Below, one piece after another: positions 1-23,038 of a DNA stretch of 23,038 nucleotides. Origin of the DNA: a virus; IMG/VR virus record IMGVR_UViG_3300027788_000093, positions 1 through 23,038 of that record. One strand, given 5' to 3'. Under the pieces are notes generated by a model. That model did no database searches and was not told the DNA's origin. It was given only the letters and a program-made list of their open reading frames with translations. The translations under genes and the position numbers were made by a program. Each line of letters begins with the position of its first letter. Position 1 is the first letter of the stretch.

Positions 1-3000
1 AATAAGTCCGTGTGCTAACGATGTCCAGTTAGCGTTTGGCATTACGTTTGCAACCCATGTATTACCATTAGTGCTGTATGCACCTGCGTTTGCACTTGAT
101 TTAACAGCTACCCATACACCTTCTTGTGCATTTCCTACAGTTTCAATATCTAAAATTGTTCCTGATGCACTAATTGCTGTTACTGTTATTGTAATATCGT
201 TAGCTGTACTTGCGCCGCCTACTGCTGTACCAGCAATAGTAAATGTATTAAGTCGAGTATAAGTTGTACCACCACTTACTATAGTTGTGACATACTTTCC
301 ACCGTTCTTAATAACTTGGAAACTTGCTCCTGAACCACCACTGTTATTGTATGTTGCTGATGGTAGGTAAACTCCAGTACGTTTTCCGTGTATTGTATCT
401 ACCCATGTACCACTTGTTGGTAATGCACCTGTTGCTTGTGAACTATCAGTTGGAGCAGTAAACGAAATTGTTGGCTCAACTGTGTAAGTTGTTGAAGCAT
501 CTGGTGTTACAATTGTTGTACCTGCTACAATATGATCCCAACCTGCTACGCTTGTTGACTCTCTTTTAACAGCAGCAATCTTAGTACCTGAGTTGTATGC
601 AGTAACAATACCAAATTGTCCTACACCAGCTCCGCCAGTAATGTTAACTCGCATGCCAATGTAAGCTGAACTAATCTCTGCATCAGTTGCAGCCAGTGTT
701 ATTGATGTTGAACTACCAGCCTGTGCAGTGTTGGAGTTAGTAATATAACCAAATCCACCAAAGTTTCCATCTGCTTCAGCAGCTTTGGAACTATCGTCTA
801 CATTATCTTGTAAGAAGATTTGATGTACGCCACCAGTTCTAAACTCGTCTGCTACTGCTGTAGCACCTGTTCCTGCTCCTGACATTAACCATGTAGCATT
901 TGTGTACTCGTTACCAGCATTATCAAATTCAAATGCATATACTTGTACAGCACCATCTGTTTGCACAGTTCCAACTGTTGCTTCAAACTGGAATTTGTTA
1001 TCAACAATAGCAGTGTTTGGAATTTCAGTTGAATCAAAGCCTTCAGCAACTGAACCAAAGTCACCATACGAGTTGTTACCGTTTGTGCCTCTAATTCTAC
1101 CACCGTTTTCTGCTAGATAACCAATGTGTGAGTAGTATGTAAACACTGACACAAGTTCTGCTCTACCGTTATTAGTAATCCATGCACCAATACCGTCGGA
1201 TATAACTTGTGTAAAGTCGTTACTAACAATTGAATCGTTACCACCGTTGTGCAATGCACCGTCAATCTTTTGACCAACTGCGCCTGAGCCAAAGGTAGCT
1301 ACGTTTTGAATATAAGGTGAACGTTCAATAATCCATGTTGAGAAATCATCTGGACCATAACCCGGATCAAGTGATACATACGCTCCACCGGATACTCTTG
1401 AAGTTCCTTGTGCGTTTGTACCAAGCAATTCACCTGCCATGTTAGCAAGAGTTTGGTTTCTAACACCAGTACCGTTTCTTACATAGTAAAAGTCTTCGCC
1501 GTCTCTTGTACCGTGTACAGCATTACCGTAGTATCTTGCTGCTTGTAATGATTTATAGTTTCCGTGATATTGTAAATCGTATTTGATTGCATCAAGGATT
1601 CTATTAACATCTCTTTCACACTGCGTTGAGCTGTAATCAAGGGCAACTGTCATTGACCCTGTTGCATCTAATACTGCCATTGCTGTAGTATTATTTTTAT
1701 TTTTAGCAACTGTAAACTTTGTGCTTGAAATAATTTTGTTTACATAATATGTAGTGCTTAATGCAAAGCCATCACCGCCAACAACACTTGGTTCGCTTAA
1801 TAGTGTTCCTGAAACTTTAACAGCAGTTCCTGGACGTAACCAACTAGTATCACTAATTGTAATACTATCATCTGATGATGTAGTTGCAGTAACAGTATCT
1901 GTGTACGTTGCTACAATATATGCTGTAGATTCTGCAACAATAAAGTTTCTGTTTCTTTCAATCTGTAGTATTGCATGATGTGCATTTCTTGCTTCAGTTA
2001 CACACGGTGATCCTTCGTTCGAACCACTGTAAACAATATCATCTAAGTCTTGCATTAATGTATTGATACGTGCAATTGCTGTTGCATCGCCACCTACGTT
2101 TGCAATAGCTTGTGTTCTTACATACTCAAAAGCAGTTCTTGTAGTTGCTTTTTGATCTAAGTCGTAAACATCTTTAGCTGTTGCTCTTAAGTAAGATAAT
2201 CCAGCTCGTAATGTTTGCTCGTTACTGTTTGTAGCAAAGTCAAACATAACTGCTTCAGTAATTAATCTAACATCACGTAAACATTTAATTTGGTTGTAAA
2301 GAACTTTCTTAGTTACACCGTCTGTTTTTGTAGCACTTGGGTAAACAACATCTGCTCCGCTTGGAGAGTTACAACTAAACACAATATTTGCTAGTGTGTA
2401 AGTATCGTTTACATCTAATCCGTGTGCTGTATTAACAGTAATGTCCATTACACCGCTGGTGTTGTTATAGGTTACTGCTGTGATGTTTAACACAGTCCCG
2501 TCAGCTTTAGTAACATTTCCGCCACTTACATATGTATGAGCATAAGCACTAGTACCAACGTAAGTTGTAATTCTTACTGTTGATGGTACTGTGTCAACTT
2601 CAAACAATGTGTGATAGTTTGTTGGGTTTAAGTGATTGATAACTCCGGTTACAACGGCTTCTTGCGCTGCGTCTAAGGTCTCTGCAGCGGTGATCAATGC
2701 TGATGTACTGTTTACACCGTTTGCTAGTGTTGGGAAGTCAGCTGTATCACCAATAAATGTTAAGCCAGTTCCATTATCTGCGGTTTTAGTTGAGCCACCA
2801 AATGTTGCTGATAACGTAAACGTATCTGCATCAGGCGCTGTTTTAACCCAGTATCTGTCACCTTTAAACAATCGATTAGTTGCACCATAATTTGTTCTAG
2901 GAACAAATGTATCTCCAACTTGTAATCCGTGTCCTACTGCTGTAAGCACATTACTAGCAACTGCGGTAACTGTAACTTTTGGTTGATTGTTAATATTGTC

Positions 3001-6000
3001 AATTACTGCTGTAATAATATCAATACCGTTACTAATGTGTGTTGAAGCAGCAGCCGATCCAGCTGTACCTCTGTACTGTGGATGTACTGATTGTAGTGCT
3101 GTAACTGTAGTATTAGTTGCAACATCTTGCATCAATGTTTTTAATTTATTGTATGCTGCAATAGTTGCTGCCTTTTCACCGCTATCATTACCAAAGTCTC
3201 CTGCATAAACAGAGCTATTACCTTCGTAATATGCTAATGCAGCAATTCTTGATTGACTTAATCCGCCGTATGTTAAATCATAACAAAGAGAATCTACAAT
3301 ATAACCTGTATCTTGTCTACACTTTCTTTTGCTATATTTTACTGTTGGATAGTTAGCAGTAATAAATGCAATTAGCTCTTCTTTAAAGAACTGTTTGTTT
3401 TCTCTTAGGCGCTGTCTTGCAGAACCGTACCCTACTAAGTAAGATGCGTTGTATCCTGTAGGATCAGTACTGTTTCTTAATTCAAATTCACCAACTCTAA
3501 AGTCAATGTTTTTCTTCATTGTTCTTACAAGTTTCTCAACATGTGTTTCTTCAACTGTGTCAGCAAAAGGAACAGCTATGTCTTGACTGTAAGCATTTCC
3601 TGAAGTTTTAGTTACTGACGACCCTTTAATAACATCGCCTAGTACACCTTCAAGTCTGCTTAATGCACTCATAGTATAAAATGCATCTGTTTTATCTGTG
3701 ATTGGCCCTGATGGTCCAACGTTAGTTGATCTAACTTCGTCGCCTAGTACAACAGTATTTTCTGGAACAATAATTGGCCCAATTTCTCTAAACTGGCCTG
3801 TCTTAATTTTGATACTATTCTGCGGAGAATATCTTGCAGGAATATTAGTTGCATTGCCTGCGGCAATTGCATCTGTAATAATTTTTAAGTTAGCTGTTAA
3901 AACTACACCTGTGCCTGCTTCAGCAATATTAGTTGCTTCTTTAAACTGTGTAACAACTGCTGTTGAGTTATCACCATTTGTTGTTTGGTAATTTACTGTT
4001 GGATCAGTTTGAGCAAGTACACTGTTAACTAGTGTTAGCATATATGCATATGCTTCTGCAGAGTTTTCTTTTTCTGTTGCTAAGTTTGAATAAGGACCTG
4101 AGTTATAAGGTGCTTCGTATAGAGCTCCAACAAATGCGTTTGCAGCACCTCTTGATCTCTTGTTACCACCGTGACACATGTCATATACAAGTGCGTCAAG
4201 TACTAATCCTACATCTCTTTCACAGCGATCATCTTCGTATGCAAATGCATTCCAAATACCAGAACCACCAGCATTGGCAATTTTGTATGTAATCCATTCT
4301 GTAACTTCACGTTGGATGAACGCTCTGTTCATTTCAAGTAAGCGTCTTGATTTTGGATTTCTTGGACCATTTAAAACTGCTTCACATGCGTATCTAACAG
4401 ATGCCCAAGGTTTATCAATTGTTGCGCCGTGTACTGGGTAAGGAGCATTTGTTCCATGTTCTGCAACAAAGTAAACAAAATCATTAGAGCCCATTGAGCG
4501 CCATTCTGGATAGTCTGCACCAGCTTGTAATACTTGTCCTTCAATTCCAATTGGAAGTCTAGCAACACCAGCACCACCGTAATAAACAATATCACCTGCT
4601 GTTGTTAGTAGTGAAGTTTCACTACCTGTAATCATCTGATTCCAATATGTACCTGTAACATCAAGGTCTGGACGACTATTTGTTGCGCCACCACCTTGTG
4701 GTCCTATTGTTGAATCGCCATCGCCTTCTGATCTATGCTTGTTGATACAAACATAAGAGTTGTCACCGAACTTAACACAGTCACCGGTTTCGTACTCATA
4801 ATCATCAGCCCACGTGCCAGCCCAATAAAAACCACTTGCTAATTTGCTCCAGTAGTTAGGCTCAATTGGATGTGCTGCTACACGAGCAGTCATTGTTCCT
4901 GTGCCTAATGTTGGAACAAACACTGCACCGCCGTGTGCAATTGAAATTGTAAATGTAGTTGCGTCATCTACTGATTTAATGTAGTATGTTGCGCCTTCAT
5001 TTACATCACCGTAAGATGCTCCACTAAAGTAAATTGATTGTCCTACAACTATTCCTGTTGTTGAAGCAACCGTAAATTTATTTGTTGAGTTACTTGTGTT
5101 AGTAACTGTAAAGTCTGTGCTTAATGAATCTTGTAATGCAACATATGAGTTACCATTAACTGATACAATTTCACCAATTTTATAATCAGTTGCGTTTGAC
5201 CAAGTATTCTTAAAGTCAAATCCTTCACTGAATAGATCCCAGTTTGTAGAATCTGTTGACGGATTTGTTGAACCACTATGATATAATTTTGCAACATATT
5301 GGTTACCACCGTACTTAACAACATCGCCTGGTTGATAAACTGTTGATCCGTTCCATGTGCTTTCGTATTCAAACCCTTCAATAAATTGATTCCAGTTTGC
5401 AGCATCTGTAGCAAATGTTGAAACATGTGATGTGTGCTGTGTAACACAAATATATGTGCCTGCACCTTGCTTAACTATATCATTAAGTTTATATCTTGTT
5501 CCAGTTGCCCATGCACCTTTGTATAAAAGTCCTTGGTTAAAAATATCCCAGTTTGACTGATTGGCTTCAAGTCCACTAGCGGCAGTACTAGCAGAAGTGT
5601 GTCCTGTGTTACAAACGTAAGTTGTTGCACCGTATCTAACAAGATCATTTATTTTATATCTTGTATTAACGGCCCAATCGCTTTTCCATTCAGTACCTTC
5701 GGCATATGCTGTCCAGTTACCAATACTGTCTTCAAGACCAAGTGCAAGAGTAGCAGCAGATGTATGCGGAGTAGTACAAATATAAATCTGTCCACCGTAC
5801 TTAACTAAGTCGTTTGTTTTATAATAAGTTGAGACACCCCACGAACCTTTCCAGTCCTGACCGTCTGTCATTTGATTCCATCTAGACGGACTTACATTTA
5901 AGTCTGTATAAAAGTCTGCATCTGATGTATGCCCTATTGTAGATATATATGTTTTACCACCATATCTGATTACGTCATCTTTGTAGTAAGTTGTTGCTCC

Positions 6001-6054
6001 AGCCCAATCAGCCTTCCAAACAAATCTAATTCTACCTAATTTAAACTCTGCCAT
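1..6054 (-). CDS. Giant tail-fibre/adhesin protein 2, C-terminus cut by window edge
   Basis: I translated this frame by hand from ATG at 6054 to base 1: 2018 codons with no stop, so the gene runs out of the window. GGAG lies about 10 bases before the ATG. The start MAEFKLGRIRF mirrors MAEFKISRLRY of the upstream giant, so they are paralogues. Visible domains: seven repeats of the type W..(S/A)T.Y..(G/N)D(V/L)V.YGG..Y....HTS at about residues 12-478; a GDIVYYGGAGVARLPIG module near 480; a beta-helix-like entry (RYACEAV near 555; VVLGDEVRS near 775); three helical motifs of the form C.(R/Q)D...I.D(A/S)..YD...GG (near 615, 920 and 1490); a conserved SPYIQ...GQKIDG..H.GGN block near 1575-1600; and at the edge a BNR-like repeat (AYSTNGNTW near 1990). 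The likely role is a receptor-binding fibre; the family is inferred from architecture, and no catalytic site was recognised. Confidence 0.88.
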   Translation of the reverse strand, partial: MAEFKLGRIRFVWKADWAGATTYYKDDVIRYGGKTYISTIGHTSDADFYTDLNVSPSRWNQMTDGQDWKGSWGVSTYYKTNDLVKYGGQIYICTTPHTSAATLALGLEDSIGNWTAYAEGTEWKSDWAVNTRYKINDLVRYGATTYVCNTGHTSASTAASGLEANQSNWDIFNQGLLYKGAWATGTRYKLNDIVKQGAGTYICVTQHTSHVSTFATDAANWNQFIEGFEYESTWNGSTVYQPGDVVKYGGNQYVAKLYHSGSTNPSTDSTNWDLFSEGFDFKNTWSNATDYKIGEIVSVNGNSYVALQDSLSTDFTVTNTSNSTNKFTVASTTGIVVGQSIYFSGASYGDVNEGATYYIKSVDDATTFTISIAHGGAVFVPTLGTGTMTARVAAHPIEPNYWSKLASGFYWAGTWADDYEYETGDCVKFGDNSYVCINKHRSEGDGDSTIGPQGGGATNSRPDLDVTGTYWNQMITGSETSLLTTAGDIVYYGGAGVARLPIGIEGQVLQAGADYPEWRSMGSNDFVYFVAEHGTNAPYPVHGATIDKPWASVRYACEAVLNGPRNPKSRRLLEMNRAFIQREVTEWITYKIANAGGSGIWNAFAYEDDRCERDVGLVLDALVYDMCHGGNKRSRGAANAFVGALYEAPYNSGPYSNLATEKENSAEAYAYMLTLVNSVLAQTDPTVNYQTTNGDNSTAVVTQFKEATNIAEAGTGVVLTANLKIITDAIAAGNATNIPARYSPQNSIKIKTGQFREIGPIIVPENTVVLGDEVRSTNVGPSGPITDKTDAFYTMSALSRLEGVLGDVIKGSSVTKTSGNAYSQDIAVPFADTVEETHVEKLVRTMKKNIDFRVGEFELRNSTDPTGYNASYLVGYGSARQRLRENKQFFKEELIAFITANYPTVKYSKRKCRQDTGYIVDSLCYDLTYGGLSQSRIAALAYYEGNSSVYAGDFGNDSGEKAATIAAYNKLKTLMQDVATNTTVTALQSVHPQYRGTAGSAAASTHISNGIDIITAVIDNINNQPKVTVTAVASNVLTAVGHGLQVGDTFVPRTNYGATNRLFKGDRYWVKTAPDADTFTLSATFGGSTKTADNGTGLTFIGDTADFPTLANGVNSTSALITAAETLDAAQEAVVTGVINHLNPTNYHTLFEVDTVPSTVRITTYVGTSAYAHTYVSGGNVTKADGTVLNITAVTYNNTSGVMDITVNTAHGLDVNDTYTLANIVFSCNSPSGADVVYPSATKTDGVTKKVLYNQIKCLRDVRLITEAVMFDFATNSNEQTLRAGLSYLRATAKDVYDLDQKATTRTAFEYVRTQAIANVGGDATAIARINTLMQDLDDIVYSGSNEGSPCVTEARNAHHAILQIERNRNFIVAESTAYIVATYTDTVTATTSSDDSITISDTSWLRPGTAVKVSGTLLSEPSVVGGDGFALSTTYYVNKIISSTKFTVAKNKNNTTAMAVLDATGSMTVALDYSSTQCERDVNRILDAIKYDLQYHGNYKSLQAARYYGNAVHGTRDGEDFYYVRNGTGVRNQTLANMAGELLGTNAQGTSRVSGGAYVSLDPGYGPDDFSTWIIERSPYIQNVATFGSGAVGQKIDGALHNGGNDSIVSNDFTQVISDGIGAWITNNGRAELVSVFTYYSHIGYLAENGGRIRGTNGNNSYGDFGSVAEGFDSTEIPNTAIVDNKFQFEATVGTVQTDGAVQVYAFEFDNAGNEYTNATWLMSGAGTGATAVADEFRTGGVHQIFLQDNVDDSSKAAEADGNFGGFGYITNSNTAQAGSSTSITLAATDAEISSAYIGMRVNITGGAGVGQFGIVTAYNSGTKIAAVKRESTSVAGWDHIVAGTTIVTPDASTTYTVEPTISFTAPTDSSQATGALPTSGTWVDTIHGKRTGVYLPSATYNNSGGSGASFQVIKNGGKYVTTIVSGGTTYTRLNTFTIAGTAVGGASTANDITITVTAISASGTILDIETVGNAQEGVWVAVKSSANAGAYSTNGNTWVANVMPNANWTSLAHGLI
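1081..1380 (-). repeat. Segment duplicated between giant fibres (copy 1; copy 2 at 9121-9420)
   Basis: This stretch aligns without gaps to 9121-9420 at a constant offset of 8040 bases, a multiple of three. The longest exact match I see is 32 bases (1136-1167 against 9176-9207). It encodes SPYIQ...GQKIDG..H.GGN.SIVSNDFTQ..SDGIGA...NNGRAELVSVFTYY in both proteins. Identity includes synonymous positions, so the copies are recent or kept alike by recombination. Confidence 0.8.
4620..6021 (-). repeat. Seven N-terminal CBM5/12-like repeats in giant fibre 2
   Basis: There are seven protein repeats of about 50-60 residues, each with W, an aromatic Y, (G/N/D)D(V/L/I)V, GG or similar, Y, and usually HTS, ending in W......G. 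Examples are TYYKDDVIRYGG, YYKTNDLVKYGG, RYKINDLVRYG and VYQPGDVVKYGG. The sixth repeat carries an inserted beta-module of about 85 residues (FTVTN...TFTISIAHGG). The pattern resembles the carbohydrate-binding module 5/12 signature (AW...Y..GD.V.Y.G..Y), but the family assignment is by eye. Confidence 0.75.
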
Positions 6055-6127
6055 GTTTGTCTACTCCGTAGTGTTCCATTGTATTTACCATTAATTTGTC
6101 ATCTTCATAAATTAGCATAATATTCAT
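6041..6127 (-). CDS. Tiny 28-aa ORF between the two giant fibres
   Basis: The ORF starts at ATG 6127, which overlaps the stop of the upstream giant fibre as TAATG. It is preceded by a near-perfect Shine-Dalgarno (GAGGAGG, 4 bases from the ATG). It encodes MNIMLIYEDDKLMVNTMEHY followed by GVDKHGRV and ends 14 bases inside the next fibre gene, in another frame. I do not recognise the peptide: it has no membrane segment or signal, and it is charged and mildly acidic. The strong ribosome-binding site and the overlaps at both ends look like translational coupling. It may be a real small protein, or a short reading frame that carries ribosomes to the start of the next giant gene. A later ATG (MLIYEDD) is possible. 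Confidence 0.45.
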   Translation of the reverse strand: MNIMLIYEDDKLMVNTMEHYGVDKHGRV

Positions 6128-9100
6128 TAACCTCCTCTAATACCTTTATCTTCAAAGGATTTAAAGAACATTGCTTGTGCAAGATAACTTCCACCGATGC
6201 CCGCTTTCGGACCGCTAAGGTCAAACATTACGGGTATGTTTACTGCTAGACCGGCGGTGTTACTAATCTCTCCCGGGCCAACTCTTACTGTACCTGCAAC
6301 AAAACTAGCTGTAAGCAAGTCTGCTCCACCAACGTTTAGTCTATTTTGCAAATATGCTTTAATTGCTCGTTGCGTAGGAATAATATTATTCGAATCTGCA
6401 ATAAACAATGGGTCTGTACTAAATTCATTAATAACAGTACCAGTACCACCAACTCTAATTCCACCAAGTGCTAGTTCTGATAGACCAGCTAAGTCAAAGA
6501 AGTCAGCACTAATAGTAACAATTCCTGTTGCTTGTTCAACAGCAAATAGTTCACCAACTCTAAAGTTACCTGTTTGGTCTGTACTTGAATAAAACACCCT
6601 ACCGCCGTTAAGTTCTTGTACTTCGTTTTCAGGATATGAAATATAATTCTGTGTGTACAAACTTGGATAGTTGGTGTTTGTAAAGTTACCTGTACCAATG
6701 TCTAGGAAGTCGTGGTTACTAATTCTGCACTGTGAATATCTAGTATTGATAGTTACAGTGTTGCCGTGTTCTGTTGACGGATCATCTTCAATTTTAAGTT
6801 CAGGACTTACTCTTAACCTTAAAGTAAATTCAGATCCTTCTTGGCTTTCTTGTTCAATTACAACAATTGTATAAAGTTCTGGATTGCCGTTTAATCTTAG
6901 CTGCGCACCTGGACCAATAACAACTGGCATTTCTGAAACAGTAATAAACTTGCCAACTGGTGTAATATCTGCAAAGCCATCACCTGTAAGTGTAACAGTA
7001 GTTGTACTAGTTTTATAAGCATTACCCCTGTTAACCCAACTTGGTTGTGCTAACACTCCGTCTCCGAATCTAGTCATATCAAGTACAAGTTCACCTGTGT
7101 TATTTGGATCAATTACTGTGTATCCAACAGGTGTGTTTACTGGATCATAGCCTGATCCTGGTTCCCAAATCTTAACTATGCCAATTGAGCCTGCTGCAAC
7201 TTCTGCTCTACCTAGTATAGTTGCTCCTGTGTAAACTAGCTTATGATTAAATGTAACATCTCTGTTAACAACTACCCATCTACCTTTTCTGTTATCTAAG
7301 CCGTCTGCTGTACTTGCATCTGGATTACCAAATGCACAAGTTTCCCAGTTGCCTGCTGCTTCAAGATCTCTTGCAGTCCAATTAATTCCATCTGGTGATG
7401 TATAAACATATTCTACTGGTCCTGCTGTAGCATCTCCTGCTATAGCTCTTCCGGCTGTATCATAAAGTGCCATAAACACACCTTGGCCGTATTTAATATC
7501 ATTCCATTGTAGTAGTGTTGAGCCATCTAGTAATGGCATTTGTGTACCAAGCCAATTTTGTCCATCAAGCGAGTAAGAAACAGCACCAGTATCGGCAATT
7601 GCTATATATCTGTTATTACCGTATGCAACCTGTTTCCAATCAAGTTGCGAACTGTCATCAACTGAATCCATAATATATGTGACCCAGGTAATAGTAGTTC
7701 CGTTCCATGTACCAATAGCAGCTAAGTTGTTACTTTTTGCAATTGCAACAAATTGTCCTTTACCATATGTAACACTTGTCCATTCATTAATAGTAGAGTC
7801 ACCAGCTGCTGGAAAATTACATGCAGTCCACGATGCTCCGCCGTTACTTGAAAATGCTGCATTATTTCCTGCACTTGCAATTGCAACAAATATGTTGGAT
7901 GTTTCGTTATCAAATGTTGGATTTCCGTATACAATATCGCTCCAATCAGTTGATGCTGGAAGTGTTACGTTAGTCCACACATCACCATTTGAACTGTATG
8001 AACCAATTGCGCTGCCGGTTTGTACTACTACAAATTTACCGTTGCCTGCTGCAATAGAAGACCACGAACCTACAGTAGGTAAGTTTGCAGTGTTCCATGT
8101 ACTACCGTTTTCTGACCAGTTGATAGTAGATCCGGTATTTGCAACGGTAACAAATCTTCCACTTTTTCCAAAACCTGTGTATTCAAATGTAACAATTGAA
8201 TTAGTACTATCTTCTGTTGTAGAGTGTACAGTAATTGTAATATTGTTTTCGTCTGCTGCTCCAATTGAACTACCTAAAATTGTTACTACATCACCTACCG
8301 CAAATCCTGCGCCACCGTTTCTAAGCTCTACTGTATAAGTTTTTCCTAGCTTAGTAATATCAAATGTTGCGTTTGCTGGCACAACTCCGGTAACAGTACC
8401 TGTACCTGTACCTGTTGAAACAAGGTTAGTGTATGTTGCTGAAGTTTCGCCGTATGTAATATCTGCCCATGTAGTACCAGCATCAAATGTTGCTGCTGCA
8501 TGTGAAAATGGAGGTGCATCAAACACAACTCTTGGTTCAAATCTATACGATGTACCAGTAAGCAACTGTGTTAAAATAGGTGTTCCTGGAACAACGTGAT
8601 CCCAACCAGCTGTTTGTGTTGATTCTTTATATACTGTAACTACTTTTGTAGTTGAGTTATATGCATGTACATAACCGTACTGTCCAGTACCAGGTCCTGA
8701 TGTTAAAATAATTCTTAACCCTAGTAAGTTTGCTGCTTCATTGTCATCACTAGTAGCAATAGTAACAGTAAGTGCGTTACCTTCCTGTGCGTTGTTACCA
8801 ATTAATGTAAATCCGCCACCACCTGCTGCTGCTGACGCATCACCTGTAACAATTCTAGCAGTATACATAGAATCATCTCTAAATTCTTCTTGTATAACTT
8901 TTGCTGAGTCACCTGAACCAATAAATGTATAGTCTGCATTTGTATAGTTTTGACCTGCGTGTCTAAATTCTAATGCTAAAATTTCATCATTTACTTCTCC
9001 AGCAAATGCTGCTGCAACTAATGCATTTTCAGTTCTGTTGTTTATTTTTGCTGTGATAGGTGTTTCTGTTGGATCGTTACCATCAGCTAGTGCGCCAATA

Positions 9101-11715
9101 TAACCATATGAACAGTTACCGTTTGTTGCACGTATAATTCCACCGTTTTCTGCTAGATATCCAACTTGGTTATAATATGTAAACACTGACACAAGTTCTG
9201 CTCTACCATTGTTTAAAACGTGAGCACCAATACCATCACTTAAGATCTGTGTAAAGTCGTTGGACACAATTGATTTGTTTCCACCGGCATGTAGTGAGCC
9301 GTCAATTTTTTGACCAGTACAGTTAGTACCAAATACTGATACACCTTGAATATAAGGTGAACGTGTCTTGATCCAAGCTGACTCGTCAGCTGTTCCCCAT
9401 CCTGGTGCAAGTGATACATAGTTTGGTCCAATTGGTCTTTGATACTGTTCAAAAACGTTTGGTGGATTTAAAGTACCAGTTAATCCTTTTAATGAACACT
9501 GTCTAACACCAGTAGCATCTCTAACATAGAACATATCTACAAGTTCACTTCCGTTTATCATACTCTTGTAGAACTTGCCTTCTCTTAAAATTTTGTAATT
9601 ACCTTCATAGTTTAAATCGTGTGCAAGAGCTTGTACAATTCTAGGAATATCATCATTATAAGTTGTTGTTGGAAGTACATAATCACTGAATGTAGAACCT
9701 AGGTATGCTATTGTTTCTGCAAGAAGAAAGTCACTGTTTGCTGTAAGCATTCTTGCAGCGTTTAATCTATTTTGCTGATCAGTAATTGCGTTAGTTCCAC
9801 TAACAACAGGATCTGTACCTGTGCTTTGAATATGGAAGTTAATATACTGAATGTATGATGCTAGTCCGTTGTCTACAAGGTTAGCTGCAACACTGTCTGA
9901 TGTAATAGTTACTGAATTAATAATCTCTAGTCCGTCACCTGTTGGTGGTCCAGGATTAAATAATCCTGATGGAACTTGATCTGTAATTACTGTAACAGTT
10001 TTGTCGTTTCCTGCTGTAGGTGTAACGTTGTTGCCTTCTAAAATATTTCTAATAACACCTTGCAAGTGTGTACTAGCTGCAATTCTGTAAATTGCATCGT
10101 TTGCCATTTCTGTAATTGCAGGGCGAGGTTCAATTCTTGAAGATCTCAGTTCTTCTCCTAGTACTACTGTTCTAGCTGGAAGGTCTAGTGGAAGAATTTC
10201 TTTAAACACTCCAGTAGTTAACTGAATAGTATTAAAACCTGCGAAGCCGTCATCACATAGTTCAACTGCATATCTAATTGTTTTTACAGGTTTAAAAGGA
10301 TCAATACCTGCATTTGGATTTGATCTATCGTCAACACCAATAATTGGATCTACATGAAAGTATCTTGCACTTCTTCCCCAGTTATCATATTCAAGTGTGT
10401 CGTTTGCACCAATTTGTAATAATGTTTCTTCTGTTCCAAGAGGTACATTAGTTGCACCAAGGGTTGATGTATCACCTGATAATCCTCTGCTTAATCCAAA
10501 AGTTAACAAATCACCTGGATTAACAAGACCTACATTTTCAGCACCTTGTAATAGTAAATCCCAATATGTAAATCCGCTTCCGTTATCTCCTGGAAAGTTT
10601 TCGCTTGACGCTACATGCTCAACATTAGCTTTATACGCTGAACCTCTGTAAGTAATTACATCGCCTACTGCATAAGTTAATGCGGTAGTCCAAGCGTTTT
10701 TCCACGCCTGACCATTAATAATAAGTTCCCAGTTACCTGCATCTAAATAATCTAAAGAGCTACCATCACTAGTTGTGTCTAGTGTTGCAACATAAATTGA
10801 TCCGCCACGTTCAACAACATCACCAGTTTTATAACTGGTTGCTGACGCCCATGAACCTGCTAAATTAAAACCTTTTGAAACAATAGCCCAATCAATTTCA
10901 CCACCTTGTGCATAAATTGAATTGCCTGGCGCTCTAGAAGTATTATTTGTTAATGCAGTATAAACATAACCACCATGTTGTACTACATCGCCAATGCCGT
11001 ATTGATCAGCATTTTGCCAAATACCCTTAACTTTATTTCCAGGTGCTTCTGTTATAAAATTAGAACTATAAAATGTACTTGTAGAAGTATGAGGTGTAAG
11101 TACTCTTAAAAGTGCTCCGCCACGCTTAACAAGGTCTTGTGCTTTATATCTAGTAGCTTCTGCATACTCACCTTTGTAAGTTACGCCATAGTAATAAGTT
11201 GTCCATTTAAACTGATCATCTTCTAATCCAAGTGCAAGGGTTGCGGCAGATGTGTGTGCAGTATTACAACGATAAACAATACCGCCATAATTAATAATGT
11301 CTCCAACTCCGTATGTTGTAGCAACTGTCCAAGCATTACCCCAGTCATTACCTGCAACAAAAATTGCCCAGTTAGCAACGTCTGCATTAAAATCTGCTGT
11401 TGATGTATGTCCTGTTACAGCTATCCATAAGTTACCACCATCGTCAACAATATCACCTGGGTAGTAAACTGTAGAGCCAGCCCATGCATTTTTAAACGCA
11501 CGACCATCTGCCATTTTAAGCCAGGCTGGACGATTAATAGTTTCGCCCGAAGCAATGTAATCTACATCTGCTTTAAAGCTAGATGAAGTGTGCCCTCTTA
11601 GAGCAATATAACTACTTCCGCTATATTCTACAACATCATCAATTGTATAAGCTGTTGCAGTCGTCCATGTACTTTTCCAAGTATATCTAAGTCGACTTAT
11701 TTTAAACTCTGCCAT
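6127..11715 (-). CDS. Giant tail-fibre/adhesin protein 1 (1862 aa)
   Basis: This is a complete protein with AGGGG upstream of the ATG, 10 bases after the 121-aa gene. Seven CBM5/12-like repeats (about residues 10-395; e.g. VYYPGDIVDDGG, YKTGDVVERGG, many followed by HTS) lead into a beta-helix-like region. That region opens with FHVDPIIGVDD and DPFKPVKTIRYAVEL (about 450-485) and VVLGEELRSSRIEPRP (about 520). A block SPYIQGVSVFG...GQKIDGSLHAGGN...NNGRAELVSVFTYY (about 783-850) is nearly identical to giant 2. Residues about 1130-1460 hold six repeats with W..I.YG.G.FVA......YS.DG..W, which suggests a BNR-like beta-propeller. The C-terminus (about 1640-1862) has GRVFYSSTDQTGNFRVGELF and EFSTDPLF...IPTQRAIKAYL, known from marine T4-like fibres. 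The inferred role is a trimeric receptor-binding fibre. No hydrolase active site was recognised. Confidence 0.9.
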   Translation of the reverse strand: MAEFKISRLRYTWKSTWTTATAYTIDDVVEYSGSSYIALRGHTSSSFKADVDYIASGETINRPAWLKMADGRAFKNAWAGSTVYYPGDIVDDGGNLWIAVTGHTSTADFNADVANWAIFVAGNDWGNAWTVATTYGVGDIINYGGIVYRCNTAHTSAATLALGLEDDQFKWTTYYYGVTYKGEYAEATRYKAQDLVKRGGALLRVLTPHTSTSTFYSSNFITEAPGNKVKGIWQNADQYGIGDVVQHGGYVYTALTNNTSRAPGNSIYAQGGEIDWAIVSKGFNLAGSWASATSYKTGDVVERGGSIYVATLDTTSDGSSLDYLDAGNWELIINGQAWKNAWTTALTYAVGDVITYRGSAYKANVEHVASSENFPGDNGSGFTYWDLLLQGAENVGLVNPGDLLTFGLSRGLSGDTSTLGATNVPLGTEETLLQIGANDTLEYDNWGRSARYFHVDPIIGVDDRSNPNAGIDPFKPVKTIRYAVELCDDGFAGFNTIQLTTGVFKEILPLDLPARTVVLGEELRSSRIEPRPAITEMANDAIYRIAASTHLQGVIRNILEGNNVTPTAGNDKTVTVITDQVPSGLFNPGPPTGDGLEIINSVTITSDSVAANLVDNGLASYIQYINFHIQSTGTDPVVSGTNAITDQQNRLNAARMLTANSDFLLAETIAYLGSTFSDYVLPTTTYNDDIPRIVQALAHDLNYEGNYKILREGKFYKSMINGSELVDMFYVRDATGVRQCSLKGLTGTLNPPNVFEQYQRPIGPNYVSLAPGWGTADESAWIKTRSPYIQGVSVFGTNCTGQKIDGSLHAGGNKSIVSNDFTQILSDGIGAHVLNNGRAELVSVFTYYNQVGYLAENGGIIRATNGNCSYGYIGALADGNDPTETPITAKINNRTENALVAAAFAGEVNDEILALEFRHAGQNYTNADYTFIGSGDSAKVIQEEFRDDSMYTARIVTGDASAAAGGGGFTLIGNNAQEGNALTVTIATSDDNEAANLLGLRIILTSGPGTGQYGYVHAYNSTTKVVTVYKESTQTAGWDHVVPGTPILTQLLTGTSYRFEPRVVFDAPPFSHAAATFDAGTTWADITYGETSATYTNLVSTGTGTGTVTGVVPANATFDITKLGKTYTVELRNGGAGFAVGDVVTILGSSIGAADENNITITVHSTTEDSTNSIVTFEYTGFGKSGRFVTVANTGSTINWSENGSTWNTANLPTVGSWSSIAAGNGKFVVVQTGSAIGSYSSNGDVWTNVTLPASTDWSDIVYGNPTFDNETSNIFVAIASAGNNAAFSSNGGASWTACNFPAAGDSTINEWTSVTYGKGQFVAIAKSNNLAAIGTWNGTTITWVTYIMDSVDDSSQLDWKQVAYGNNRYIAIADTGAVSYSLDGQNWLGTQMPLLDGSTLLQWNDIKYGQGVFMALYDTAGRAIAGDATAGPVEYVYTSPDGINWTARDLEAAGNWETCAFGNPDASTADGLDNRKGRWVVVNRDVTFNHKLVYTGATILGRAEVAAGSIGIVKIWEPGSGYDPVNTPVGYTVIDPNNTGELVLDMTRFGDGVLAQPSWVNRGNAYKTSTTTVTLTGDGFADITPVGKFITVSEMPVVIGPGAQLRLNGNPELYTIVVIEQESQEGSEFTLRLRVSPELKIEDDPSTEHGNTVTINTRYSQCRISNHDFLDIGTGNFTNTNYPSLYTQNYISYPENEVQELNGGRVFYSSTDQTGNFRVGELFAVEQATGIVTISADFFDLAGLSELALGGIRVGGTGTVINEFSTDPLFIADSNNIIPTQRAIKAYLQNRLNVGGADLLTASFVAGTVRVGPGEISNTAGLAVNIPVMFDLSGPKAGIGGSYLAQAMFFKSFEDKGIRGG
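7330..8190 (-). repeat. Six BNR-like beta-propeller repeats inside giant fibre 1
   Basis: Residues about 1180-1460 contain six repeats of roughly 40-50 residues. Each pairs a strand such as GRFVTVANTG, GKFVVVQTG, GQFVAIAKS, NRYIAIADTG or GVFMALYDT with a turn such as WSENGSTW, YSSNGDVW, FSSNGGASW, YSLDGQNW or TSPDGINW, then a closing strand W..I.YG or similar. A preceding strand (WADITYG) may close the ring. This is the usual look of a BNR/sialidase-type propeller; the fold is inferred, and the conserved residues of an active sialidase were not identified. Confidence 0.65.
10530..11682 (-). repeat. Seven N-terminal CBM5/12-like repeats in giant fibre 1
   Basis: Seven imperfect repeats of about 50-60 residues begin with WKSTWTTATAYTIDDVVEYSG and end near WDLLLQG. 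The shared skeleton is W..AT.Y..GD(V/I)(V/I)..GG..Y.....HTS....W....G. One repeat contains HTSAATLALGLED, which also occurs in repeat 2 of giant fibre 2, tying the two arrays together. The resemblance to chitin/carbohydrate-binding modules is by pattern only. Confidence 0.75.
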
Positions 11716-18024: not shown

Positions 18025-19197
18025 TTAAGCAAATCTTAAGTTAGCTGATGTAACACCAACTTTACCTAAGTAGTCAGCTGCGTTACCAAGAGATGATGCT
18101 GTGTTTGTTAATTCAACATAGCCATATCTTGTCATGAAGCTAACGACTGGCTCAAACGTATCTGGATCCAGTACAACACCGCTTGACATCAATGGGATGT
18201 ATGGGCAGTAGAACGCTGCTGCGTCAGACTCTGAAGAGCCTTTGTAACCGATCAACACATCGTCGTCAGTTGCATAACCGTTAACGTATACACGCATTGC
18301 ACCGTTTAAAGTACCTACAAACTTAGTGTTTGTTGGAGCTTCAAAAGTACCTTCAGTTGTTCTTGCAAACGCTGAAGTTGTAGCAGACTGTAACAAAGTT
18401 AGTACTGTTGGTGAAACAACAGCCCAGTTACCTGCGCCTCTACGTGTACGCTGTGCAATCAAGTTTGATACTCTGTTAATTTGAACAGCTAAAGCAGCAT
18501 GTTCGTCACCAACAAAAGTAGCAGTACCTGAAACAGCACCTTGGTCATAAGTTAATGCAGCTGAGCCAGCAAGTGTCTTCAATGAAGTGATCACTTCTTG
18601 GTCGATTTCTGCAGTAATTTCTTGAGCCAATGCAGCCATAATCTCTGCTTCGATGTCAATGCCCTGTTGAGCTTGTGCATCTTGAGCAGCTTCAAATGTC
18701 CAACGAGCACTCAACTTACGAGTTTTCGCTTCGACAGTTTGTTTCAAGATTTGGATGCTTAGTTTATTTCCTGGTACACCTTCTAAAGCTGCTGTACTAG
18801 CTGCTTTATCAGAAGTTGCGCCGGAATAACCTTCAGCAATCTTGAATGGCGATAGTGCCTCATCACCAGCTGTTGTATCCGTACCACTTGCAGAGTTGAA
18901 CGCATCTGCGTAACGTACTCTTAAAGTGTGGATTTGACCAACTGGTCCAGTCATTGGTTGTACTCCAACTAATTCATTTGCGATGACAGTTGGCATTACA
19001 CGTCTGATCACTGGAAGGATCACACGATTTAGTGTTGCAACGTTGCCGGCAGATGTAGCTCCTGCAGTAGCAGACTCATTCAAATACGTGCGGGTATTCT
19101 CCAGAGTTGCTGCCATAACAGAACGCTTGTTACCTTGAAGCCCTTCGAGAAGAGCGTCTTTGGTTTCTGACCAGCGACTTTCTAGTAGTTGTGACAT
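18025..19197 (-). CDS. 23: Major capsid protein gp23
   Basis: The 390-aa precursor of the T4-like head shell has AAGGAG upstream of the ATG. The N-terminus (MSQLLESRWSETKDALLEG) is followed by YLNESATAGATSAGN and VILPVIRRVMPTVIANELVG, hallmark sequences of marine gp23. Gp21 normally removes an N-terminal propeptide; LNE (residues 39-41) before SATAG fits the L/I-x-E cleavage rule. Later motifs include the helix IDIEAEIMAALAQEITAEID (about 185-205), GAGNWAVVSPTVLTLLQ (about 250) and YCPYIPLM near the C-terminus. It is shorter than T4 gp23 (521 aa) and shorter than I recall for cyanophages, probably because the insertion domain is reduced. It is the last gene of the head operon before the terminator. 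Confidence 0.97.
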   Translation of the reverse strand: MSQLLESRWSETKDALLEGLQGNKRSVMAATLENTRTYLNESATAGATSAGNVATLNRVILPVIRRVMPTVIANELVGVQPMTGPVGQIHTLRVRYADAFNSASGTDTTAGDEALSPFKIAEGYSGATSDKAASTAALEGVPGNKLSIQILKQTVEAKTRKLSARWTFEAAQDAQAQQGIDIEAEIMAALAQEITAEIDQEVITSLKTLAGSAALTYDQGAVSGTATFVGDEHAALAVQINRVSNLIAQRTRRGAGNWAVVSPTVLTLLQSATTSAFARTTEGTFEAPTNTKFVGTLNGAMRVYVNGYATDDDVLIGYKGSSESDAAAFYCPYIPLMSSGVVLDPDTFEPVVSFMTRYGYVELTNTASSLGNAADYLGKVGVTSANLRFA

Positions 19198-19209: not shown

Positions 19210-20304
19210 TTAAACTTTTAAGCCCGCAAGCCTGCGGATGTCAAATATCTCAGCAGTTTTTTCTCCACTGCTAATTTGATTGCCTGAACTTCTGTTGCCT
19301 GTTATTTCTTTGCCTTCTGTCAACGCTGCTTTTTTGGGAGCACCACCTTCCATTACGGAAGATATGTACTTGTCAAATGCAGTGTGCAATTTAGTAGTCT
19401 GTACAGATTCTAATAACTCACCCATTACCTCACGCTTCTCTGCTGAAAGAGGTCCTAGCAATTCTGCCATTACTTCTGTTCTAGCTGCGCTATTTTTGAT
19501 ACGAGCAATTTCTGCATCACGACTTTCTACTAACTTTTTAGATTCTGCAACAATTACTGCTGCTTCTTTTACTTCAGCATCTTTCTGTTTTACAACTTTA
19601 AGAAGTTTTGAAGTTTCAGATTTTTCATTTAAGTGGCTAGTAGCATATTCACTTGCGAACGATTCAAAAAGTCTGCGACCGAAGTCGTTTTCTCTCGCTG
19701 CTTGAATATCTTCTTTCAATTGAACCATTTCAGATTTAATACCTTTCGATACTGTTTCTTCAATGACCTTCGATGCTTTATTGATAAAGCCTTTCCTAGC
19801 TGCTTCAAATTTAACTTTGCTATCTCTAACAAGTTTAACTTTTGTTTCTGCTAAGTCTTTCTTATCAGCATGGAATTCTGCAATTTCTTTTGAAAGTGCA
19901 TCAACGATAAAAGATTCAAGTTTACCAACGTTACCTGCAACTGCTTTACGATCTTCACGAAGTTCTGCTAACTCATTCTTAAGATTCTTAAGAACAAATG
20001 CTTCCATAGCTTTTGAATCTTTTACGATTTTTTCAGCATATTTGGCTTTAGCTTCGATAAGTCCTTGACGGTCTTCAGCAAATTCTGATAGCTCAGCTTG
20101 TATTCTGTCTGCTAACATATTTTCAACTGCTTCAACCATTGCGGTCTTATCATGTTCGTACTTCTGTGCATATTCTTCACGCAATTGTGTAGTAACATTG
20201 TTACGGTTTTCTTGAACTGTTGTTTCCCAAGCGGTTTCAATTTCCGACTTGACTTCTTCGGAAATCACATTAGTTTCGAATAGTTGTTTTACAAACTCTA
20301 GCAT
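19210..20304 (-). CDS. 22: Prohead core scaffolding protein gp22
   Basis: The 364-aa protein starts after AGGAGA, 10 bases downstream of gp21 and 12 bases upstream of gp23. It is almost entirely charged helix or coiled coil, rich in K, E and A (e.g. IQAELSEFAEDRQGLIEAKA, LAELREDRKAVAGNVGKLE), and ends in IFDIRRLAGLKV, as in other marine gp22 proteins. Many L/I-x-E triplets (LRE, LAE, LKE, IAE) are potential gp21 sites, consistent with its being cut to peptides during head maturation. It forms the inner core on which gp23 assembles. Four diverged repeats of a helical unit (..(A/E)EF.(A/E)D(R/K)..L.E.K.K..) are visible at about residues 70-190. Confidence 0.95.
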   Translation of the reverse strand: MLEFVKQLFETNVISEEVKSEIETAWETTVQENRNNVTTQLREEYAQKYEHDKTAMVEAVENMLADRIQAELSEFAEDRQGLIEAKAKYAEKIVKDSKAMEAFVLKNLKNELAELREDRKAVAGNVGKLESFIVDALSKEIAEFHADKKDLAETKVKLVRDSKVKFEAARKGFINKASKVIEETVSKGIKSEMVQLKEDIQAARENDFGRRLFESFASEYATSHLNEKSETSKLLKVVKQKDAEVKEAAVIVAESKKLVESRDAEIARIKNSAARTEVMAELLGPLSAEKREVMGELLESVQTTKLHTAFDKYISSVMEGGAPKKAALTEGKEITGNRSSGNQISSGEKTAEIFDIRRLAGLKV

Positions 20305-20314
20305 AGTGATTCTC

Positions 20315-20944
20315 CTACGTTTTGTTTAAACTTGAAATAAACTTTTTCAAGCTCTCTGCTATATACTTCTGTGCCTGTGGGTCGCCTTTAACTTCTTGTG
20401 CCACTTGAAATGCCTTGTAGCCACCTGTATTATTCATTAGGTGTTCGTAAACTGGTGTTGGGTATGCTCCCGGAGCAGATGGTTGAGCTACAACATCAAC
20501 AGTAATAATTTCAAATCCTTGAACATTACCGTCTCCGTCAACTTCGCCTGACCCTCTACTTGAAACTCCCAACTTAACTCCGCTTTCCAACATCGATGTT
20601 ACAATTTGTCCCATCGGCGTTGGCAGCATTTTAAGTTTTCCGTAGCCATTTGGACCATCCATCCACATTTTAGTAATCATGTGACTGACCCTGTCCAAAT
20701 TGATGCGTAAATCTTGTGGGTGATCAACTTCCCCTAGCACTGAATACCCCCCAGAAATCTGTTCGTTGAGCGTCTTAACAGCCCTGTCAATTTCCTTCGA
20801 AGAATAAACACGTTGGTTAGCATTACGAATGTCACCTTGAATACAGATACCACTCAGATGTAATGTTTTACCCTCGGTCTCATCACGCTCAAGTACGATT
20901 TTAGCCTGATCGAAGCTCAGATGTTCTGCTAGTGTAGTTTTCAT
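20315..20944 (-). CDS. 21: Prohead core protease gp21
   Basis: This is the serine protease of the T4 prohead, which activates itself, digests the scaffold and trims gp23. I chose ATG 20944; GTG at 20947 is directly before it and also possible (AAAGGAAA lies upstream). Visible family motifs are HLSGICIQGDIRNANQRVY (the N-terminal strand and substrate-groove region), GEVDHP with the likely catalytic His at about 75, GVSSRGSGEVD with the likely nucleophile Ser at about 128-129, and DVVAQPSAPGA (Asp about 150), a conserved block of the gp21 family. It is 209 aa, close to T4 gp21 length. It sits between the gp67-like protein and gp22, exactly as in T4-like phages, and is probably translated from the same message. 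Confidence 0.95.
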   Translation of the reverse strand: MKTTLAEHLSFDQAKIVLERDETEGKTLHLSGICIQGDIRNANQRVYSSKEIDRAVKTLNEQISGGYSVLGEVDHPQDLRINLDRVSHMITKMWMDGPNGYGKLKMLPTPMGQIVTSMLESGVKLGVSSRGSGEVDGDGNVQGFEIITVDVVAQPSAPGAYPTPVYEHLMNNTGGYKAFQVAQEVKGDPQAQKYIAESLKKFISSLNKT

Positions 20945-20966
20945 CACTTTTTAGTATTTCCTTTTA

Positions 20967-21863
20967 CTATCGTTTGCTACGGAAAATCGATTGCTTGTTA
21001 TCAGCTGATTCTTTGCTACCTGCTTTTTCAGCGCCATGTCCTTTAGTGCTGTCCATTTTAGTTGCTGTTTTTGAACCAGGCTTGTTAACATTACCTGCAT
21101 TTTCTTCTTTAGGTGTAATATCTGCTAATCCACCGTCATTTTTACCTGACTCTGTGCCGCCTTTTGCGATGTTAGCAGTTGTTCCACCCATATCGTTTTT
21201 CATGTTGTCAACAATTGATTTTTTGTTGTCTGCTGTTTCTGCACTGCCTTTTGATTCAGCACCGTGTCCACCAGCTACTTTTTCAACATACTCACGAAAT
21301 GTGTCTAGTTCGTCAACTTCAGAAGCTTCTGGTGCAAATGCTTCTTCTTCTGCACCCATATCCATTTCTGGCTCACCTTCTTCGTCTCCGTCTACACCTT
21401 TGATTTCGTCAAACTTTGCTTGAAGTTCGTCAACGATTGAATCTAGATCTTGGAAAAGCTCTTCTGGCTCTTTCTCACCTTCTTCATCAGCGTCAATGTC
21501 AGATTCTAAATCGTCTGTTTCATCTCCACCAATTGTTGGCATGTCTGTCATATCGTCTTCTGCTTCAATAGCAATGTCTTCAAATTCTTCATCTAATTCT
21601 TTATCATCAGATGCTTCTTCATCAGATGCTTCTTCAACAGCGTCATCATCGTCGTTATCGGATGCTTCGTCTACTGCTTCATCATCATCAGTTTTTGATG
21701 CTTCATCTACTTCCTCATCGTCAGTCATTTCTTCTTCGATTAGGTTTTCGTAGATTTCACGTGATTTAGTTACCACGTACTCGTGAAATAATTCTTCTGC
21801 TTTTTCTTGGTTATCGTTAACCAAGTTTTCGAGCATTTGCTCTAATGTACTCTTATCTGCCAT
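20967..21863 (-). CDS. 67: Acidic prohead core protein, gp67-like
   Basis: This is a 298-aa protein with AAGGAG before the ATG. The first 40 residues (LEQMLENLVNDNQEKAEELF, then HEYVVTKSREIYENLIEEE) resemble the helical N-terminus of T4 gp67, which also turns into a long acidic tail. Here the tail is much longer than in the 80-aa T4 protein. Residues about 43-130 are a D/E-rich stretch with repeated (D/E)EAS, and residues 199-220 and 275-296 are two copies of GHGAE..GS.E.ADNK.SI separated by a Gly/Lys-rich linker. The likely role is an internal core component, cleaved by gp21 and perhaps retained as internal peptides. Position directly upstream of gp21 supports this. The assignment to gp67 is by N-terminal pattern and context, not alignment. 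Confidence 0.8.
   Translation of the reverse strand: MADKSTLEQMLENLVNDNQEKAEELFHEYVVTKSREIYENLIEEEMTDDEEVDEASKTDDDEAVDEASDNDDDDAVEEASDEEASDDKELDEEFEDIAIEAEDDMTDMPTIGGDETDDLESDIDADEEGEKEPEELFQDLDSIVDELQAKFDEIKGVDGDEEGEPEMDMGAEEEAFAPEASEVDELDTFREYVEKVAGGHGAESKGSAETADNKKSIVDNMKNDMGGTTANIAKGGTESGKNDGGLADITPKEENAGNVNKPGSKTATKMDSTKGHGAEKAGSKESADNKQSIFRSKR
21605..21634 (-). repeat. Perfect 15-base tandem repeat (x2) in gp67-like gene
   Basis: The plus strand reads CATCAGATGCTTCTT twice in succession, encoding EEASD in tandem. Imperfect copies of the DEAS codons continue on both sides (about 21605-21730), a substrate for slippage within the acidic tail. Confidence 0.85.
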
Positions 21864-21939: not shown

Positions 21940-22599
21940 TTAAATGGTAGTATTTTGATTCATTTTGTGAGGATATATAATTCCTTCAAAAGTGTTGCCA
22001 AAATCTGTTACACTAATATGTTTAAGATTAGTGTATTGCGGTCCCAGCTTATCTGGAATAAATGCGCCATCATCAATGATTCTATAAAATGTTGTGTGTG
22101 TAAATTCCTTAATAACTTTCTCTGTTTGGCTTAGCCAGTTGCCAAAGAACGTTGCAGAGTCTGTAGTTTTCTTGTAATTAAACGTATCTGCATATACATT
22201 ATTAAATTTTCCTTTAACACCTTGGTAGTCAAACCCTGCAATATAAATCTTCTTATGGCCGTTTGATGCTGCAAACCATAATGCAGTAGGTCCACTACTC
22301 CATCCCTTGTGCGGACTAAAAAAATTAACACCGTGGTTAGTTTTTATTCCTTTATTAGGATTAGTCCATACTGTGCCTTTGTTATGATAGCCTGCTTCGA
22401 TCATTTCGTTAACCATTTTAACATCTACTGCTACAATGTAATGTGGATCAAATTCTCTATATTGTGCGTTACAACCGTATACAGTTCCAACGTTTACTAA
22501 TTTTTCACATTGAATTGATCGGCGGCTTAACCCGTTTCCTAATACAAATGCTATATCTTTACTGTGGGATTTATTCTTCTTGCTCAAGTTTCGCACCAT
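21940..22599 (-). CDS. MptE/CST-I-like glycosyltransferase-fold protein
   Basis: I prefer ATG 22599 (219 aa), which overlaps the preceding gene by 29 bases; a start at 22644 (234 aa) is open but overlaps it by 74. Neither has a strong ribosome-binding site. Visible motifs are AFVLGNGLSRRSI near the N-terminus (a nucleotide-binding GNG.S loop), GTVYGCNAQYREFDPHYIVA, then SSGPTALWFAASNGHKKIYI followed by AGFDYQG, and a C-terminal RIIDDGAF. This order (GNG.S, CN..Y, SG...A..A...G.K.IY..G.D) resembles CST-I-type sialyltransferases and the related MptE-like family. The substrate is unknown. It is an accessory gene inside the head cluster, with no counterpart in T4. It might modify a virion protein or a host glycan; that is inference. 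Confidence 0.7.
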   Translation of the reverse strand: MVRNLSKKNKSHSKDIAFVLGNGLSRRSIQCEKLVNVGTVYGCNAQYREFDPHYIVAVDVKMVNEMIEAGYHNKGTVWTNPNKGIKTNHGVNFFSPHKGWSSGPTALWFAASNGHKKIYIAGFDYQGVKGKFNNVYADTFNYKKTTDSATFFGNWLSQTEKVIKEFTHTTFYRIIDDGAFIPDKLGPQYTNLKHISVTDFGNTFEGIIYPHKMNQNTTI

Positions 22600-22810
22600 A
22601 CATTTGTCTAATGAAGTCAAGTTCAGATTCGTGTTCTGCAACATGTGCTTCGGATTGTAATCTTAATTGATTAATCTGACGTAACGTAAGGCGTGCTTTG
22701 CGTGTATCATCTCGTTTGAGTACACTGCTATCTTTCTTATTGTCGTAACGGCGGTCGACTGCAAAGTCGTTCACATCGTCATTAAAATATAAAAATTCGT
22801 TTAAAAGCAT
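22571..22810 (-). CDS. Conserved small head-module protein (79 aa), function unknown
   Basis: This protein lies between the portal gene and the glycosyltransferase-like gene, 11 bases after the portal stop. The sequence starts MLLNEFLYFNDDVNDFAVDR, continues with DTRKARLTLRQINQLRLQSE and ends in ELDFIRQMYGAKLEQEE. It is charged and mostly helical. I recognise it as a type conserved downstream of gene 20 in marine T4-like phages, where T4 itself has genes 67 and 68. It may be a core component, but no function is known to me. It has no clear Shine-Dalgarno; an AATAAATA element lies immediately upstream. Confidence 0.85.
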   Translation of the reverse strand: MLLNEFLYFNDDVNDFAVDRRYDNKKDSSVLKRDDTRKARLTLRQINQLRLQSEAHVAEHESELDFIRQMYGAKLEQEE

Positions 22811-22821
22811 AATTGTATTTA

Positions 22822-23038
22822 TTAAACTGCAGGTGTTTCTGCTGTTTCTCCGCCAGTTACATCATCTGCTGGGGGAGCTTCTATTTCTGCTTCTGCTCCT
22901 TCTGCGCCTGCATCCGCGGCCATCCCGCTAGGCGTAACACCAACTGATCTCATTTCAGCACCAGGATCTTCAGGACCTGAAAGATTACCTGCATTCTCTT
23001 CTCTCCACATTCTTTCATTCTCGACAATTTCTTCTTGA
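22822..23038 (-). CDS. 20: Portal vertex protein gp20, C-terminal end only
   Basis: The frame is open from the right edge to TAA at 22822, giving the last 71 residues. It starts QEEIVENERMWREENAGN and ends with an acidic, Ala/Pro-rich tail (GAEGAEAEIEAPPADDVTGG, ETAETPAV). An EN..(I/M)W.EEN segment near the C-terminus is typical of T4-like portal proteins, and position at the head of the 67-21-22-23 cluster supports gp20. The portal forms the dodecameric DNA gate and the initiator of head assembly. The internal ATG at 23010 is not the real start. Confidence 0.85.
   Translation of the reverse strand, partial: QEEIVENERMWREENAGNLSGPEDPGAEMRSVGVTPSGMAADAGAEGAEAEIEAPPADDVTGGETAETPAV

Follow-up and report, generated by a model that had tools for sequence, protein, structure and literature searches.

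The described systems closest to the phage protein considered here are Cst-II and Cst-I (GT42, PF06002; PDB 1ro7 and 2p2v), the Maf flagellin glycosyltransferase (PF01973 group; PDB 5mu5), and MptE with archaeal HPPK (PDB 8sd5). Cst-I and Cst-II act on lipooligosaccharide, and His188 of Cst-II is described as its general base (PMC4202792). Maf uses CMP-pseudaminic acid to modify flagellin, and does so in the cytoplasm, before export (PMC3426422). In open-licence PMC text we found no report of the present gene, of a phage Cst-like enzyme, or of a glycosyltransferase in a T4-type head operon. The superfamily is known; what appears to be new is a catalytic centre that looks changed, and the place of the gene in the head operon throughout a clade.

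The gene and its predicted fold

In the window, that is, the whole 23,038-nt stretch of viral DNA that was analysed, positions 21940..22599 on the minus strand form one ORF of 219 aa, with its ATG at 22599 and its stop ending at 21940. An earlier note, made from the letters and their reading frames, had proposed a CST-I/MptE-like glycosyltransferase here; the gene and all of the motifs that it quoted are found, namely GNGLSRRSI, CNAQYREF and GWSSGPTALWFAASNGHKKIYIAGFDYQG. The frame is open to 22644, 45 nt upstream of the ATG at 22599. Because many homologues have stops upstream of the codon at 22599, and their nearby starts vary (ATG, GTG or TTG), we consider 22599 a fair start and did not adopt the longer form. 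The gene overlaps the small gene upstream of it (22810..22571) by 29 nt. Relatives of the protein are encoded in 295 of the 303 viral stretches that matched our search pattern (the best 80 were retained), and dN/dS is about 0.10 (dN 0.083 and dS 0.869 between the window and L003; dN 0.040 and dS 0.395 between L003 and L011); the gene is therefore no chance ORF. It is under purifying selection.

The AlphaFold2 model of the window protein (68 sequences; pLDDT 86.9, pTM 0.85) was compared with known structures using VIA-align. The top match was Maf (Z 12.8, 171 residues aligned, rmsd 3.9), whose central domain has the same fold, although Maf is a 632-residue chain with flanking domains, of which residues 269-513 align. 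Cst-II (Z 11.0, 176 residues, rmsd 3.8) and Cst-I (Z 10.5) came next, then MptE/HPPK, which shares the fold but with a lower Z and a shorter alignment (Z 9.6 over 140 residues). These were followed by SteA (9.0), a Pasteurella sialyltransferase (8.8), thiamine pyrophosphokinase (8.7) and human sialyltransferases (7.8); unrelated NAD-binding folds reached at most 5.6. Foldseek alone gave no PDB match at E ≤0.001 (best 2.1e-3, to HPPK), and among viral models 22 of its matches pass, several of them named MptE-like or DUF115. The Cst-I/MptE-like fold that had been read from the motifs is thus borne out by the model and its VIA-align matches.

Pfam search of the window protein gave 15.2 bits (E 0.016) to CST-I (PF06002), below the cut-off of 25, and no match to PF01973 (MptE-like). 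Among the 68 family members, 31 match PF06002 at E up to 1 (best 0.0014), and 16 weakly match PF01973 at E up to 1 (best 3.9e-4). The PHROG collection has phrog_30607, which carries no function and is matched by the window protein at E 3.2e-27 and by all 68 members (best 2.1e-39). It also has phrog_4603, matched by the window protein at E 0.0014 and by 67 of the 68 members at E up to 0.1 (best 7.5e-8); the name of this second family, 'alpha-2,3-sialyltransferase', is an annotation only. The family profile of 221 rows matches Cst-I/II at a probability of 94.6%, and its score against Cst-II alone, 55.7, is far above the highest of 60 shuffles (22.8); the 68-row profile matches Cst more weakly (probability 36-84%). 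In PDB sequence searches, designed ankyrin-repeat proteins outrank the Cst enzymes (E 8.2e-5, 5.2e-4), but this match is confined to one short stretch, G.TALWFAASNGHKKI, and the model lacks an ankyrin array, so that ankyrin-repeat identity was ruled out.

Donor site and catalytic centre

Residues were mapped to Cst-II by sequence profile rather than by superposed coordinates. In this mapping N9, N31, S132, G152 and D154 of Cst-II align to N22, N44, S102, G122 and D124 of the phage protein, all five invariant in the 68 members; among 153 unique family sequences N22 and N44 are each kept in 151 (with two gaps each) and S102 in 150. On the minus strand, N22 falls in GNGLSR (residues 21-26, 22522..22539), N44 in CNAQYR (residues 43-48, 22456..22473), S102 in GWSSGPT (residues 99-105, 22285..22305), and G122 and D124 in GFDYQG (residues 122-127, 22219..22236). 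The GNG, CN and SG motifs are thus held in common with Cst-II and Cst-I, and the nucleotide-binding loop, which the earlier note had singled out as the part to follow in homologues, is retained in them. Neither of the two outcomes that the note had named as refuting its reading, a lack of any structural match and the loss of this loop, was thus observed.

Elsewhere the phage protein departs from Cst-II. Gly99 stands opposite R129, Gln126 opposite Y156, and Asn154, of the N154-W155 pair (22135..22140, minus strand), at the place of the catalytic base His188. This last pairing occurs in all five hhalign alignments that reach His188, with low local confidence, and two local alignments end before it. 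Position 154 in the 153 unique sequences is N in 146, Y in two, F in two, G in one and a gap in two, so that none of the 151 residues found at this position is His; Trp is kept at position 155 in 150 of the 153, and Asp at position 59 in 152. Judged by these alignments, with the donor residues in register and His188 facing Asn154, the donor pocket appears preserved and the catalytic centre altered, and the invariant D59, E65 and D124 are candidates for catalytic residues. Since Asn154 faces His188 and the family has no His there, the window protein is best described, by profile and predicted fold, as Cst/Maf-like, and is unproven as a GT42 sialyltransferase. Assignment to the CST-I or MptE-like families in the form first given is not supported, in view of the CST-I score, the lack of a PF01973 match and the alignment of the catalytic His to Asn.

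The head operon and its distribution

The operon runs, on the minus strand throughout, from the C-terminal end of the portal gene gp20 (22822..23037, cut by the window end; a tblastn match inside the annotated PA5oct portal gene) through a small gene of 79 aa in the gp68 position (22571..22810, phrog_13986), the 219-aa gene, and an acidic gene of 298 aa in the gp67 position (20967..21863), for which Pfam and PHROG gave no usable match. It continues with the gp21-type prohead protease (20315..20947, Peptidase_S77, PF03420 E 1.5e-23), a scaffold-position gene (19210..20304, phrog_10922 E 2.5e-80) and the major capsid protein gp23 (18025..19197, PF07068 E 1.4e-101). The place inside the head operon is thus as the earlier note had it. 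The names gp68 and gp67 were assigned to the flanking genes by position; the PA5oct counterparts of both are annotated as structural and were seen by MS. The T4 late promoter TATAAATA was of no help, as it occurs 0 times in the window where 2.35 are expected by chance. At the other end of the window are two very large minus-strand ORFs, at 1-6054 (2018 aa, truncated at the edge of the window) and 6127-11715 (1862 aa). Both start in a similar way, contain YKxxDxVxYGG...HTS repeats and resemble long tail-fibre proteins.

In all 152 loci retrieved by means of the gene itself, it adjoins the core-position genes; both flanks are visible in 149, and the other three show one flank, in the right order. 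Because a set fetched in this way is biased, loci were also fetched by their protease. Of 80 loci found through an L161-like protease, 57 extend over the slot and 23 do not; the gene is present in 55 of the 57 and missing from two (L412 and L413). Of 80 found through a PA5oct-like protease, 60 extend over the slot and 20 do not; 58 lack the gene and one, L327, which occurs in both sets, has it. L319 of this second set has a family copy downstream of gp23. A protease tree was built from 104 rows, after removal of 43 gp21 loci whose slot state was not known and of sequences more than 92% identical to another of the same label. On it, the 54 rows that carry the gene in the slot (among them the window) and two that lack it make up a single clade of 56 rows with support of 100/100. 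Gene presence changes three times on this tree, a number as low as which was reached in none of 500 shuffles, and is most simply explained by a single gain with two losses. Within one clade of uncultured aquatic phages, large members of the T4 superfamily, the head operon includes the gene as a fixed part; the two clade loci without it indicate that it is not strictly essential.

Beyond the clade, the named jumbo phages Phosso, Vibrio 2.275.O, PA5oct and CBB have the operon but not the gene. The only credible relatives in the phage collection are those of HTVC008M and Mosig (28-31% identity); these pelagiphage copies lie near gp59 and gp32, outside the head operon. In HTVC008M (L081:752-4983) a NolO-like carbamoyltransferase and two 2OG-Fe(II) oxygenases lie between two copies of the family. 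As to lineage, gp23 has 60-80% identity to 55 of 2482 records, with jumbo phages (Phosso, Vibrio 2.275.O and PA5oct) nearest rather than cyanophages; a cyanophage origin was therefore rejected. Moraphages were not adopted as the same lineage, because the tree in PMC12619734 places them outside the T4 group.

A relative is also found on a contig of 335 kb that was binned into a Neomarinimicrobiota genome; this genome holds a second contig, of 153 kb, that is alike around the head operon (L161 and L160, respectively). The 335-kb contig is most likely a phage. A search for the Cst family in 199 genomes of the phylum of this MAG gave one weak match and none above cut-off. Copies from the sister subgroup (L141-L155 and L161:4884-5594) have a basic N-terminal extension, like MAKIDKSxYTKEEW..RR. 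The start of the L161 extension, MKKYIPGETKEQRKARK, resembles the start of an unrelated ORF on the same contig (L176:11059-11922), and tblastn of a 27-aa N-terminal tag found no match in phages. Elsewhere on the 335-kb contig a distant family copy adjoins a PTPS/QueD-like gene (L176:9418-10531).

Possible functions and other genes in the slot

We tentatively propose that the product is an active glycosyltransferase, co-expressed with the head genes and probably using a CMP-sugar donor, that acts in the cytoplasm, while the prohead is being built, to modify a head or core protein. In this proposal a small soluble protein of Cst-II/Maf/MptE fold would be translated together with the head proteins; its GNG/CN/SG/GFD pocket would bind a nucleotide-activated sugar, probably CMP-linked, for which an ulosonic acid such as Kdo is our best guess; and the sugar would be passed on to one of the head or core proteins at that stage. 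We infer the transferase activity, the CMP donor and the head-protein acceptor, the last of these from gene order and gene overlap. Cytoplasmic action on a head protein is suggested by analogy with Maf, whose protein acceptor is modified in the cytoplasm before assembly (PMC3426422). That a protein with the fold of bacterial sugar-transferring enzymes is encoded among the head genes hints that these phages may modify their own shells chemically. We know of no virion glycosylation in the large T4-superfamily group.

CMP-Kdo, like CMP-sialic acid, is a CMP-linked ulosonic acid, and is for this reason a sensible donor. On the 335-kb contig a KdsA gene (324 bits, cut-off 314) adjoins a gene for a KdsB-like cytidylyltransferase, 78 kb downstream of our gene, and in G258 such a pair lies about 88 kb downstream (the pairs are at L174:12043-13543, of G001:C57, and L418:2454-3885, of G258); both KdsB-like proteins are below the NCBIfam cut-off. 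With this pair on their contigs, these two phages, both of the sister subgroup, may make CMP-Kdo. Of the IMG/VR clade contigs, one of 33 has KdsA (none in a set of 21; G258 in a set of 12), as do the MAG contig of 335 kb and its duplicate of 153 kb; a CTP_transf_3 gene occurs on one of 26 clade contigs (0 of 14 and one of 12) and on the same MAG contigs. Neither KdsA nor CTP_transf_3 was found within 89-104 kb downstream of the gene in four long contigs from the subgroup to which the window belongs (G002, G003, G005 and G007), nor the pair over about 80 kb of G263, of the sister subgroup; NeuB was found in 0 of 25 records searched. Marine phage contigs often carry KdsA (355 stretches); among 37 KdsA-bearing contigs searched (of 80 loci), two have a distant family copy and none a copy of the head-operon type. 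CMP-Kdo was thus rejected as a proven donor; as the pair is rare and missing from the four long contigs of the window's subgroup, it gives only a hint.

Other readings of the gene must be weighed against this proposal. The enzyme might instead modify a host-surface glycan, making a late change to an envelope sugar (e.g. a Kdo- or ulosonate-bearing one) directed against superinfection or sticking to debris. The lipooligosaccharide activity of Cst-I and Cst-II speaks for this, as does a jumbo-phage survey in which glycosyltransferase clusters are taken as makers of altered outer polysaccharides (PMC7824862), and the KdsA and KdsB-like genes of the two sister phages are lipopolysaccharide-core enzymes. 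We nevertheless judge it unlikely, given that it offers no reason for the head-operon place across the whole clade, that no further sugar gene adjoins the 219-aa gene in the operon, and that the gene shows little turnover, in which surface-sugar genes differ. The replacement of the catalytic His by Asn raises the possibility of a pseudoenzyme, a Cst-like fold that serves without catalysis as a component of the prohead core or scaffold, and the genes on both sides, which are in core positions, have PA5oct counterparts annotated as virion proteins. The focus of conservation on the donor-site motifs (N22, N44, S102, D124 and N154-W155), and the lack of the gene from two clade loci and the four named jumbo phages, make this rather improbable. 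A catalytically dead protein would still be unusual, as a sugar-transferase fold recruited into the head core.

Two further readings invoke a different chemistry, and we hold both to be highly doubtful. The protein could be an MptE-like or other nucleotide enzyme, of pyrophosphokinase or pterin type, that transfers no sugar, as the structural matches to MptE/HPPK and thiamine pyrophosphokinase, the weak PF01973 matches of some members, and the PTPS/QueD-like neighbor of the distant copy on the 335-kb contig might suggest; yet Z is higher for Cst and Maf, phrog_4603 is by name a sialyltransferase family, and no pterin gene lies beside the head-operon copy. Or it could add sugar to modified bases of phage DNA, a possibility raised by the neighbors of the two HTVC008M copies and by known DNA-glycosylating phage glycosyltransferases (cited in PMC12619734); against this, the head-operon copy has no DNA-modification neighbor, and the substrates of Maf and Cst are protein or glycan. 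Should our proposal of a transferase acting on head or core protein be right, glycosylation of the head, or its covalent decoration in some other way, would be integral to capsid assembly and passed on vertically, rather than an occasional add-on. It would apply to a widespread group of uncultured large phages, and would add an enzyme of Cst/Maf fold with a changed catalytic centre; the intact mass of gp23 and the core proteins would offer a simple handle for testing it.

The slot between the two core-position genes is occupied differently in another jumbo-phage lineage. In six of its loci (L284, L286, L287, L293, L295 and L298; at about 3.2-4.0 kb in each) an unrelated ORF of ~271 aa lies between the gp68-position and gp67-position genes. 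It had no match in Pfam, PHROGs or PDB sequences; its model, of low confidence (pLDDT 57), matches SGNH/GDSL hydrolases (TesA, Z 15.4), and from this fold search it may be an SGNH-hydrolase fold, sharing the slot with the 219-aa gene but differing from it in fold. The SGNH-hydrolase fold includes carbohydrate esterases and O-acetyltransferases. It is conceivable, as a speculation that we regard as more probably wrong than right by a wide measure, that the slot is one for enzymes, where an Asn-Trp Cst/Maf-like transferase would add an ulosonic acid (e.g. Kdo) to a prohead protein in one clade and an SGNH-type esterase or O-acyltransferase would act in the other lineage, the chemistry of the head coat being a conserved but swappable step of capsid assembly. 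On a 608-kb contig the slot holds an ORF of 286 aa (L337:2922-3779) that resembles 2OG-Fe(II) oxygenases by eye only and gave no match in Pfam, PHROGs or PDB. Most other loci that lack the gene have 106-264 nt in the slot.
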